The translations under genes were made by a program, and so were the position numbers. A stretch of DNA of 9,861 nucleotides from an uncultured Chryseolinea sp. (GTDB lineage Bacteria; Bacteroidota; Bacteroidia; Cytophagales; Cyclobacteriaceae), in assembly GCA_946478915.1 (NCBI GenBank), contig CAMLER010000145.1, positions 1 to 9,861 on the forward strand, read 5' to 3'. The notes under the pieces are model-generated. The model searched no databases. It had not been told where the DNA came from and saw only the letters and a list, made by a program, of their open reading frames with translations. This document shows positions 5,963 to 9,731 of the stretch, one piece after another. How positions within the stretch are numbered: the stretch's first letter is position 1; each line of letters starts with the position of its first letter.

Positions 5963-5970
5963 TATCTTTG
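5963..5970 (+). promoter_or_regulatory. Bacteroidota-type -7 promoter element of the tRNA-Arg gene
   Basis: TATCTTTG is an exact TAnnTTTG match that ends 25 bases before the first base of the tRNA, so a transcript would carry a leader of about 20 bases for RNase P to remove. No obvious TTG -33 box lies 19-21 bases upstream; the right arm of the 10-bp inverted repeat occupies that region. Confidence 0.6.
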
Positions 5971-5995: not shown

Positions 5996-6067
5996 GGTCC
6001 CGTAGTTCAATGGATAGAATAGGAGTTTCCTAAACTTTTGATGCAGGTTCGATTCCTGTCGGGACTA
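5996..6067 (+). tRNA. tRNA-Arg (anticodon CCU)
   Basis: A 72-base cloverleaf folds cleanly. The acceptor stem is GGTCCCG/CGGGACT (5996-6002 with 6060-6066, one G-T pair), the D-stem GTTC/GAAT, and the anticodon stem GGAGT/ACTTT around loop TTCCTAA with anticodon CCT. The variable loop has 4 bases, and the T-stem GCAGG/CCTGT encloses TTCGATT. The discriminator base is A6067 and CCA is not encoded (CGA follows). This tRNA reads AGG codons. A TATCTTTG promoter element stands 26 bases upstream and a hairpin terminator begins 3 bases after the 3' end. The last 9 bases of the gene (6059-6067) are the start of a 77-bp sequence repeated at 6611. Confidence 0.95.
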
Positions 6068-6135
6068 CGAAAAACAGAGTGAGGGTGAGAGCGAGAGCGA
6101 ACAAACGAACTCTGTTTTTTCTTCGCTCTCACACT
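6059..6135 (+). repeat. 77-bp direct repeat, copy A (tRNA tail plus terminator)
   Basis: This stretch is identical over 77 bases to 6611-6687. It begins with TCGGGACTACGA, of which the first 9 bases are the end of tRNA-Arg, and continues through the whole terminator hairpin. Beyond it, 9 of the next 12 bases still match (6136-6147 with 6688-6699). The base just before the repeat differs (G6058, C6610), so the left boundary is sharp. Confidence 0.95.
6070..6120 (+). terminator. Terminator of tRNA-Arg (bidirectional hairpin)
   Basis: AAAAACAGAGT (6070-6080) pairs over 11 bases with ACTCTGTTTTT (6109-6119), and T6120 completes a run of six T. The loop is unusually long (28 bases) and purine-rich. 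Because the stem begins with five A, the opposite strand also ends in a T-run, so it can stop transcription from both sides. It begins 3 bases after the tRNA. Confidence 0.7.
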
Positions 6136-6146
6136 CACACTGACTC
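6077..6146 (+). repeat. Long imperfect hairpin (25-bp stem) overlapping the terminator
   Basis: The purine-rich arm 6077-6101 (GAGTGAGGGTGAGAGCG and following) pairs with the pyrimidine-rich arm 6122-6146 at 21 of 25 positions around a 20-base loop. It shares its left arm and loop with the terminator stem, so the two structures exclude each other. The GAG/GTG repetition makes the arms low in complexity, which may explain part of the match. A similar structure forms in copy B (6628-6653 with 6674-6699, 21 of 26 paired). Confidence 0.5.
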
Positions 6147-6184
6147 TGCTCCCGTTGTTTTGCAAATAACCTCACAATACCGTT

Positions 6185-6529
6185 ATGTTCGATTTTGAAA
6201 AACTCGATGTTTACAAAAAAGCAAAGGCCTTCAATTCTGGTGTTAGGACTTTCATCAAGGACACCAAACTGGACAATACCACAAGAGACCAGCTCAGAAG
6301 AGCGTCTTTTAGCATTGTTTTGAACTTGGCTGAAGGATCCGGAAGGTTTTCTCACGCAGATCGGAAAAATTTCTATATCATTTCCAGGAGTTCCATTTTT
6401 GAATGTATTGCCATCCTGGATGTATTGAAAGACGAATCGATCATCGACGAAAATTCATTTCGTGGATTTTACAATCAGGGCGAAGAACTCTCAAAAATAT
6501 TGTTTGCAATGATTAAGAACTTACAATAA
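6185..6529 (+). CDS. Four-helix-bundle protein of the S23 / 23S rRNA intervening-sequence (IVP) family
   Basis: The 114-residue protein matches the S23/IVP family (about 115-125 residues, a four-helix bundle). The N-terminal helix is FEKLDVYKKAKAFNSGVRTF. The hallmark NLAEGSGR (47-54) is followed by D59, the FYIISRSS segment (63-70), E73 and the ILDVLKD helix, then a last helix rich in E, L and K. Length and motifs suggest an intact protein. Relatives are encoded in intervening sequences inside 23S rRNA genes of Leptospira and others, or stand alone; Avd of diversity-generating retroelements shares the fold and binds nucleic acid and reverse transcriptase. The biochemical role of stand-alone members is not established. 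The ATG follows the left repeat by only 49 bases, with no TAnnTTTG between, so expression may depend on read-through from the tRNA promoter. It lies between the two 77-bp repeats. Confidence 0.9.
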   Translation: MFDFEKLDVYKKAKAFNSGVRTFIKDTKLDNTTRDQLRRASFSIVLNLAEGSGRFSHADRKNFYIISRSSIFECIAILDVLKDESIIDENSFRGFYNQGEELSKILFAMIKNLQ

Positions 6530-6535
6530 ACCTGG

Positions 6536-6587
6536 CTCGTACCACGGCGAGATCTAGATTTTCGCTGAAATGTTTCAGTGTAGACAC
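6536..6587 (+). repeat. Cluster of short inverted repeats after the S23/IVP-family gene
   Basis: Three small palindromic units lie within 52 bases: CTCG/CGAG (6536-6539 with 6548-6551), CTGAAA-TG-TTTCAG (6565-6578, which extends with a G-T and a C-G pair) and GTGT-AG-ACAC (6578-6587). Each is weak alone. No T-run follows, so this is not a clear terminator. Together with the junction hairpin at 6603-6619 they may mark the right end of the 552-bp unit. Confidence 0.35.
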
Positions 6588-6602
6588 AAATTCGTTCGAT
6601 AT

Positions 6603-6619
6603 TAGTACCCTCGGGACTA
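6603..6619 (+). repeat. Small hairpin across the right repeat junction
   Basis: TAGT-A-CCC-TC-GGG-ACTA is an inverted repeat with one unpaired A. Its right half is the duplicated tRNA tail (GGGACTA) and its left half lies in the unique sequence just before the repeat. The left half thus acts like an acceptor-stem partner for the duplicated tRNA end. Confidence 0.45.
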
Positions 6620-6687
6620 CGAAAAACAGAGTGAGGGTGAGAGCGAGAGCGAACAAACGAACTCTGTTTTTTCTTCGCTCTCACACT
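6611..6687 (+). repeat. 77-bp direct repeat, copy B (tRNA-tail fragment plus terminator)
   Basis: This is an exact copy of 6059-6135, offset by 552 bases. It contains the last 9 bases of tRNA-Arg but no further tRNA sequence upstream (only the CCC of the junction hairpin). It ends 23 bases before the stop codon of the convergent permease gene. Confidence 0.95.
6622..6671 (-). terminator. Terminator of the padR-permease operon (bidirectional, copy B)
   Basis: The same 11-bp AAAAACAGAGT/ACTCTGTTTTT stem as after the tRNA. Read on the minus strand, it begins 39 bases past the permease stop codon and ends in TTTTT, so it is well placed to end the operon. On the plus strand it would end the four-helix-bundle transcript. 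Confidence 0.65.
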
Positions 6688-6710
6688 GACACTCACACTA
6701 ATTTCCCCCC

Positions 6711-9653: not shown

Positions 9654-9704
9654 AATTAAAGTCCTAAATGTAGCCAAAACAATGAATTAAAGTCCTGTTT
9701 GTAG
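9654..9704 (-). promoter_or_regulatory. Two 20-bp direct repeats upstream of padR (probable operator)
   Basis: On the plus strand AATTAAAGTCCTAAATGTAG (9654-9673) and AATTAAAGTCCTGTTTGTAG (9685-9704) match at 17 of 20 positions. The 12 bases nearest padR are identical, and the three mismatches are consecutive. The copies are 31 bp apart start to start, close to three helical turns, so two proteins would sit on the same face. The first copy ends 6 bases before the padR start codon. Autoregulation by PadR is the likely purpose. The promoter should lie here too, but only weak -7 candidates (such as TACATTTA on the minus strand inside the first copy) are visible. Confidence 0.55.
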
Positions 9705-9731
9705 TCAATACTTGGGTATTGGACAAAGGTT

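Follow-up and report, generated by a model that had tools for sequence, protein, structure and literature searches.

A putative family of half-kilobase insertion units carrying an S23/IVP four-helix-bundle gene at the 3' ends of tRNA and tmRNA genes in Bacteroidota

Proteins of the S23/IVP family have been known since the 1990s as products of open reading frames (ORFs) in the intervening sequences (IVSs) of rRNA genes, and the accessible sections of two reports assign them no role (PMC4990558, PMC11270868); the accessible section of a third places S23/IVP ORFs in some cas loci (PMC3936711). In the open-access literature, as far as its accessible sections go, we found no report of IVP genes at the ends of tRNA or tmRNA genes. 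Several other described systems resemble the locus presented here in one respect or another. Integrative elements that target tRNA or tmRNA genes, and CIMEs, leave an intact RNA gene on one side and a copy of its 3' tail on the other, a tail duplication that is classic for tRNA-targeting integrases, and also occur as tandem units. REP/RAYT and IS200/IS605 systems have end hairpins in the same orientation and a short fixed sequence at the insertion point, integron cassette arrays have one palindromic site per unit and tandem units whose cargo varies (the latter matched at a few of the loci presented here), and DGRs, defined by a reverse transcriptase with template and variable repeats, include Avd, a protein with a four-helix-bundle fold.

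The locus analysed here lies in a window of 9,861 nucleotides (the whole stretch of DNA that was analysed) and holds a 552-bp unit that fails a defining feature of every nearest class tested, be it the rRNA site, the linked integrase, the adjacent Y1 transposase or the reverse transcriptase. Like rRNA IVSs (those of Coxiella and Leptospira, and CPR rRNA insertions), it has a PF05635 protein, an ORF within a stable-RNA transcription unit and stem-forming borders, but it follows a tRNA-Arg gene rather than lying inside 16S or 23S rRNA; a further mark of an rRNA IVS is that RNase III cuts out its RNA and no ligation follows. Units of this kind sit at the exact 3' end of a tRNA or tmRNA, their end repeats are direct rather than inverted, and they have a right-end motif, tandem arrangements and cargo, in contrast to rRNA IVSs. 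Unlike integron arrays, they are anchored at an RNA gene and the IVP gene is their usual gene; unlike a DGR, a 552-bp unit is too small for a reverse transcriptase, and the IVP gene is the one recognisable gene in it. In its workings the unit most resembles a tRNA-targeting element that lacks an integrase and is expressed in the manner of an rRNA IVS, and it looks like a tiny kind of insertion element without earlier description. We consider it rather probable that the window contains a member of a family of insertions of about 0.5 kb at tRNA and tmRNA 3' ends, with the IVP gene expressed by read-through and the units moved by recombination in trans. Insertion and targeting at RNA 3' ends are well supported by the comparative sequence data, and the hosts of the family appear to be Bacteroidota.

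In the window, where all features given here lie on the + strand, an intact tRNA-Arg(CCT) gene is the target (5996..6068; ARAGORN and Rfam, with the Rfam model ending it at 6067). The sequence-only reading of this DNA had claimed that 6059-6135 and 6611-6687 are identical, and they do form an exact direct repeat of 77 nt, which widens to 89 nt at 97% identity (6059-6147 and 6611-6699, spacing 552); the only other direct repeat of at least 20 nt in the window is one 27-nt pair at 81%. The repeat starts within tRNA-Arg, as had been stated, and the "last 9 bases" given for the overlap hold for the Rfam model, ARAGORN placing 10 tRNA bases in the repeat. Copy 1 (6059..6135) consists of these 10 nt of tRNA tail followed by hairpin sequence, so that most of the repeat lies outside the tRNA; copy 2 is at 6611..6687. 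We rejected a chance origin, the repeat being exact over 77 nt and the pattern family-wide, and also a simple duplication of a terminator, which leaves the tail copies, the fixed right-end spacing and the target changes described below unexplained.

The left-end hairpin of unit 1 (6069..6149) begins directly 3' of tRNA position 74 and resembles a terminator, with its T run and an arm of pyrimidines trailing behind. A 94-nt stretch with repeat copy 1 folds better than all 200 shuffled versions (z -5.0), and a covariance model built from 24 hairpins, the window included, matches this hairpin at 89.4 bits and a second hairpin at 6621..6699 at 90.7 bits. Between 5800 and 6800, nothing in Rfam except the tRNA reaches a gathering score, and other RNA families were rejected, the remaining matches being eukaryotic microRNA models far under their gathering scores. 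The IVP gene (6185..6529) is followed by a right end at 6595..6620 with the motif TTCGATA at a distance of 26 from a terminal TAC, and the final 10 nt of this right end copy the tRNA-Arg tail. Since right ends elsewhere join directly to hairpins, and since the right ends of L047 and L076 are followed by other sequence instead of a hairpin, the order of a unit would be hairpin, IVP gene and right end, and we infer a 552-bp insertion unit at 6069..6620. For the second hairpin of the window, the best reading is that another unit begins there, one without an IVP gene, which it may have lost or never had; lone hairpins occur at other loci. Both the right-end motif and this start of an IVP-less unit were missed by the sequence-only reading.

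The 6185-6529 product (114 aa) matches PF05635 at 78.8 bits (cut-off 33.8) and TIGR02436 at 75.5 bits (cut-off 24), and these scores above both curated cut-offs, together with a predicted four-helix-bundle fold, place it in the S23/IVP family. It is encoded by the sole recognisable gene within the 552-bp unit, in line with the earlier claim that one four-helix-bundle gene fills it. The AlphaFold model (pLDDT 94.7) retrieves the S23 structures 2gsc and 2rld in Foldseek and, more weakly, Avd in the DGR complexes 8ub7 and 4dwl (TM about 0.74-0.82, E 0.04-0.26), with a sequence identity between IVP and Avd of about 8-9% over the structural alignment. The likeness of the model to S23 and Avd structures suggests nucleic-acid binding. 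dN/dS was 0.04-0.15 in the 18 usable pairs of 21 (pairs that have loci in common), figures that cover relatives and not the window's gene; the L006/L016 pair was discarded, the fetched L016 match starting late, and two pairs, including window/L001, had saturated dS. Ratios this low place the IVP protein under purifying selection in those relatives. The IVP gene of L047 (locus L304) has an internal stop. No IVP match was found in phages or, with a single-protein query, in viral contigs, and plasmids gave one match, at 33% in Nostoc. Where homologues are annotated by name, they are called just "four helix bundle protein".

Placement next to RNA genes recurs throughout the relatives. For a scan of species genomes, the window and 26 of at least 120 homologue matches were aligned (27 sequences in all), and the best 80 of the 112 relatives recovered, plus the window, make up a set of 81 loci. 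Among the 68 evaluable loci, defined as those with at least 600 bp upstream and including the window, 49 have a same-strand tRNA or tmRNA 3' end within 600 bp upstream of the IVP gene, compared with 0.45% (97 of 21,677) of random positions in the same loci away from the IVP gene. The proposal that the element inserts at the ends of stable RNA genes is supported by this difference. The other 19 evaluable loci have no same-strand RNA gene within 600 bp upstream, and several of them have tail-like sequence before the hairpin. The targets at all 51 RNA-adjacent loci are Leu (23), tmRNA (13), Arg (8), Phe (4), Lys (1), Glu (1) and Gln (1). A second set of 39 loci came from a search of 395 genomes in the class, with the best 11 candidates at most scored per genome; 19 of its 41 IVP rows have an RNA gene 87-598 bp upstream, and it adds His, Met and Ala as targets, many of its records duplicating the first set or one another. 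The layout of hairpin and then IVP gene is identical at Leu, Arg, Phe, Gln, His, Ala and tmRNA sites, and one genome (G389, that of L044) carries units at two RNAs, tmRNA (L318) and tRNA-Leu (L319).

RNA adjacency is not shared by IVP genes at large. It had been suggested that other S23/IVP genes be examined for flanking tRNA or rRNA tails: in 20 carrier genomes, picked for carrying the subfamily, 23 of 117 IVP hits are RNA-adjacent, four of these following tRNA-Ser, whereas 94 have no RNA gene upstream (within 600 bp on the same strand, with less than 600 bp of contig available for a few hits and some being gene pieces). Adjacency as a general IVP trait was rejected on this count, and placement at RNA ends is, judging by these genomes, a property of one IVP subfamily.

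The point of insertion is precise. At RNA genes the hairpin starts directly after nucleotide 74, the base following the discriminator. There are 138 distinct hairpins whose 5' end is covered. For 55 of them ARAGORN calls an RNA end no more than 8 nt away, and AC precedes all 55, the three bases ahead being TAC in 31, CAC in 23 and AAC in 1. The fold of the hairpin is conserved: in the alignment of 24 hairpins, 93.1% of cells pair and both partners have changed in 11 of the 14 pairs, compared with 32-61% of cells and 1-4 compensated pairs when the partner is slid by 1-3 columns, a comparison that favours the structure to the extent that it was predicted from the same alignment as was scored. 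A second, tmRNA-rich group of 14 hairpins shows covariation in 6 of 10 pairs.

Away from ARAGORN RNA genes there are 83 distinct hairpins, 57 of them with AC just before, including a few RNA ends that ARAGORN missed at contig edges (L017, L063 and L075 among them). Within 60 nt before these 57 hairpins, TTYGAYA or TTGCAAC occurs 17 times; in 15 of these it stands exactly 26 nt from the final C, and the other two are placed differently. With 15 of the 57 showing it, the motif must be decayed, different or missing at many hairpins. A reading of TTCGA as a remnant of the tRNA T-loop was set aside, because the spacing is 26 as against 21 in tRNA and because TTGCAAC stands at the same spacing in other loci. 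In 17 loci the right-end tail matches the tail of its own RNA over a mean of 6.06 nt, compared with 3.05 in permutations (none of 10,000 reaching it). With L020, L039 and the window left out, the values are 4.29 and 2.94 (24 of 10,000). The effect leans on few loci: the longest matches are 18 nt (L020), 15 nt (L039) and 10 nt (the window and L028), and at 11 of the 17 loci the right tail agrees with its own RNA over 2-5 nt, where 2 nt is the minimum that the anchor imposes. An intact RNA gene with a duplicated tail is what is observed, over 10 nt in the window and 2-18 nt at other loci.

The resemblance of the tails, together with the direct end repeats, is best fitted by site-specific recombination through an enzyme acting in trans. 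A unit would be excised, probably as a circle of DNA, and would move through recombination at the common RNA tail, with the recombinase supplied from elsewhere. Tyrosine recombinases are present in all 18 genomes searched, among which, short of a systematic screen, no parent element whose ends agree with those of the units was identified. At the loci themselves, an HMM grown from one seed, the L001 recombinase, found no tyrosine recombinase in the window or in 77 of the 81 loci, many of which are short contigs on which such a model has limited sensitivity. Recombinase ORFs occur in the other four: L001 and L011 have pieces adjoining the IVP gene, and L026 and L058 each have an ORF no more than about 0.6 kb away. 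The element had been proposed to be recombinase-free, and these counts by the one-seed HMM agree with that. The units might alternatively be CIME-like passive remnants of larger tRNA/tmRNA islands that lost their tyrosine integrase, with the IVP gene, commonly the first cargo gene, left behind between attL and attR. The tail duplication is what tRNA-targeting integrases would leave, and the recombinase ORFs at those four loci fit as well. Two further recombinase matches are in keeping with it: close to the tRNA-Leu of the L015/L179 array there is a short fragment (G019:C14:34825), and three IVP-less hairpins in G015 have an integrase some 3 kb away (G015:C23:4670). An island-like junction at L019 that ends in a tmRNA tail and the presence of cargo segments fit too. 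We nevertheless hold this origin to be rather unlikely: beyond the scarcity of linked recombinases, separate decay of islands would not readily yield one hairpin-IVP layout, of about 0.5 kb and usually with one gene, at many RNAs, and the direct repeat of the window lies mostly outside the tRNA, in contrast to integrative elements and CIMEs.

Two further routes would draw on other enzymes. End hairpins in the same orientation and insertion after a short fixed sequence are also what an unlinked Y1 transposase of the IS200/REP type would produce by single-strand transposition, using the hairpins in the way RAYTs use REPs, and Y1_Tnp exceeds its cut-off in 17 of the 20 carrier genomes. However, two draft genomes that carry units (G009 and G012) have no Y1_Tnp match. 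In the nine genomes scanned for both, no Y1 gene lies near a hairpin or is flanked by the same hairpins, the nearest on one contig being about 81 kb away, and the 1-13 listed hairpins per genome, many of them at RNA-gene ends, are fewer than REPs. We regard Y1 transposition as highly improbable. Insertion through RNA, in which a read-through transcript of hairpin and IVP gene is copied by a reverse transcriptase in trans with IVP as an Avd-like cofactor, would accord with the resemblance of the IVP model to Avd, with a position downstream of stable-RNA promoters and with the IVP relatives in rRNA IVSs. This route is very unlikely in our estimation: RVT_1 exceeds its cut-off in 11 of the 20 carrier genomes, and the nine carriers without it (most genomes being drafts) weaken the case, while a right tail that resembles the target suits site-specific recombination of DNA better.

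The distribution of the units is patchy. Of the 395 genomes of the class, 39 have a match at E <= 1e-33, and two of six and two of nine members carry units in the two genera compared. Crocinitomix catalasitica ATCC 23190 (L021) and Chryseolinea sp. H1M3-3 (L011) are examples of cultured carriers. On a tree of the 81 proteins, 51 of them labelled by target, there are 12 changes of RNA target (minimum 6), compared with a mean of 25 after shuffling, and none of 200 label shuffles was as low; the tree rests on 113 columns, leaves many forks open and retains L077, whose row is out of frame part-way and forms a long branch. With so few changes relative to the shuffles, targets appear to be inherited and yet to switch, and related lineages do have different RNA targets. 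The window protein groups (99/94) with two Chryseolinea proteins whose units stand at tRNA-Arg(CCG) instead of CCT, and those two genomes have other sequence after tRNA-Arg(CCT) (L189, 72 nt covered, and L190).

An empty site at tRNA-Arg(CCT) in relatives had been proposed as a check on insertion, and the presence of both repeat copies in all relatives, with slow divergence and no empty site, as evidence against it. Hairpin-free sites exist: 29 of 30 tRNA-Arg(CCT)-like loci from the family have no hairpin match, the exception (L210) having hairpin repeats, and not all relatives carry the copies. The tRNA-Arg(CCG) site has no hairpin in four of six members of one genus. In the genus Crocinitomix, IVP matches occur in two of nine genomes, both at tmRNA. 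Seven tmRNA sites were found in this genus: two of them are occupied, four have no hairpin, and the remaining one shows a hairpin trace some 400 nt further on. The occupied L263 and the empty L264 are 90.6% identical over 1508 bp upstream and diverge after the tmRNA. The downstream flanks of this best pair do not match, and neither the tmRNA sites nor L047 gave a clean empty site with a matching downstream flank, the flanks being non-syntenic. Neither an excised circle nor a strain polymorphism was seen in these sequences.

The units might also have a non-mobile origin, with a hairpin terminator and an IVP protein that regulates tRNA operons as resident parts of these operons; inheritance, duplication in tandem and homologous recombination at tRNA genes would then account for their spread. 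The tandem copies do resemble the outcome of unequal crossing-over. Moreover, a different IVP gene lies between tRNA-Ser(GCT) and tRNA-Arg(TCT) in six of six genus members, with an intact ORF in five, which indicates that IVP genes can be stable parts of tRNA operons. This origin is distinctly unlikely for the present units, however, given their patchy occurrence in genera, the RNA-target changes on the tree and the right tails that resemble their own RNA.

Expression of the IVP gene by read-through is likely in most loci, to judge from promoter motifs. The Bacteroidota -7 box has the consensus TAnnTTTG. At 35 of 50 RNA-adjacent loci the 100 nt upstream of the RNA gene contain such a box (3.45 in shuffled sequence), whereas between hairpin and IVP start codon it is found at 6 of 50 (1.94 in shuffled sequence). 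A box that is usual before the RNA gene and rare before the IVP gene makes read-through from the RNA promoter likely. In the window, TATCTTTG (5963..5970) fits the consensus and is the presumed promoter of tRNA-Arg; it would also drive the unit by read-through. The IVP start is never closer than 75 nt to the nearest hairpin start, and at 18 of 59 loci the distance is at most 110 nt. A T run closes many of the hairpins, which could therefore replace the terminator displaced by insertion, in which case the hairpin would serve the RNA gene as its new terminator. The IVP protein, like its structural relative Avd, may bind nucleic acid of the hairpin or the tail, and such binding could help the unit to persist or to move.

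A bolder version of this scheme would make IVP and the structured hairpin a self-mobile unit, which targets the T-arm/acceptor end shared by tRNA and tmRNA and inserts after nucleotide 74, with rRNA IVSs as the same parasites in another stable RNA. We think this unlikely. The sequence-only reading had suggested a link of the IVS phenomenon to tRNA loci; that link draws on the common protein family and the setting in a stable-RNA transcription unit, and a common mechanism does not follow from it. What emerges is a defined IVP subfamily tied to a precise site, namely tRNA and tmRNA 3' ends with a conserved hairpin and a right-end motif, and it raises the question of how a half-kilobase unit without a recombinase gets to so many RNA genes. 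The hairpin and right-end sequences can be tested for protein binding, read-through and excision, and in combination with an IVP profile they would let annotators spot units.

Units take several forms across loci: single, tandem (L015/L179, L019 and L026), with cargo, or as a lone hairpin. Between one hairpin and the next, L044 carries HipB/HipA-like genes, L013 an esterase together with a TPR protein, L067 an MBL-fold protein together with a hemerythrin, and L015 and L062 carry AAA ATPases; in L067 and L062 the last cargo segment has an outer hairpin that is a weak match. The four-helix-bundle protein had been taken for the only protein of the element, which holds for the 552-bp unit of the window but not for these units with cargo. 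In a scan of 11 genomes (E <= 0.01, at most the best 150 candidates per genome, double matches on both strands counted), 48 hairpin matches were listed, 1-13 per genome. Occurrence of the repeat at many unrelated loci had been named as grounds for abandoning the insertion reading; the hairpins are low-copy, 26 of the 48 lie at IVP loci, and 5 of the 22 away from IVP genes begin at RNA ends, whereas the remaining 17 are at neither or are unplaced. The five lone hairpins at RNA ends follow tRNA-Asn (L227), tRNA-Arg(TCG) (L230) and tmRNA (L242) and, as weaker matches in G005, tRNA-Asn (L239) and tRNA-Met (L244). L220 and L240 have tail-like sequence ahead of the hairpin.

Sequences resembling parts of the ~0.5-kb unit, in which a conserved hairpin, the gene for an S23/IVP four-helix-bundle protein (IVP) and a right end with a TTCGATA-type motif follow the 3' end of a tRNA or tmRNA gene, may also occur without a gene. 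At locus L072, repeated copies with ~170-bp spacing lie 3' of the IVP gene, each carrying TTCGATA and a CAC/CAT-AAATCAG-like stretch, and the copies resemble right-end/hairpin units lacking genes. At L044, a HipA-like toxin is broken into two ORFs (Couple_hipA and HipA_C; 10884-12328); a HipB-like HTH gene precedes the split ORFs, and two hairpins bracket them.

An extra short insert separates the hairpin from the RNA gene at L014 and L038, and a comparable one is placed to the right of the IVP gene at L020. All three contain a block resembling GAAGTTTATCCCGA...TCGGGGA and also have at their end a copy of the RNA tail, the last bases of the target gene. Possibly, these inserts represent a second type of mini-element using the same sites as the IVP units. 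At two tmRNA sites, L265 and L266, a short insert ~60 nt past the tmRNA terminates in a tail copy (...GGGCTCCAC / ...GGTGCTCCAC), and L266 additionally has a hairpin trace ~400 nt on. Three other loci (L196, L207 and L208) carry an intact tRNA-Arg followed by partial tRNA-Arg-like copies, the pattern left by ordinary tRNA-targeting islands.

A different IVP gene is flanked by tRNA-Ser(GCT) and tRNA-Arg(TCT) in all six Chryseolinea-genus genomes (L251-L256; intact ORF printed for five of the six), separated by a few dozen bases from the former and by a few from the latter. It is a protein gene within a tRNA cluster and has apparently been inherited vertically.

A unit is also present at tRNA-Leu in CP034120.1 (L030), a record titled Glaciecola amylolytica, and its DNA is 81-85% similar to loci from flavobacterial records (L041 and L076), reflecting either cross-phylum transfer or a mislabelled record. 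Within the window, two 27-nt repeats (81%; 9654-9711) lie where a PadR-like regulator gene starts and are a possible operator.
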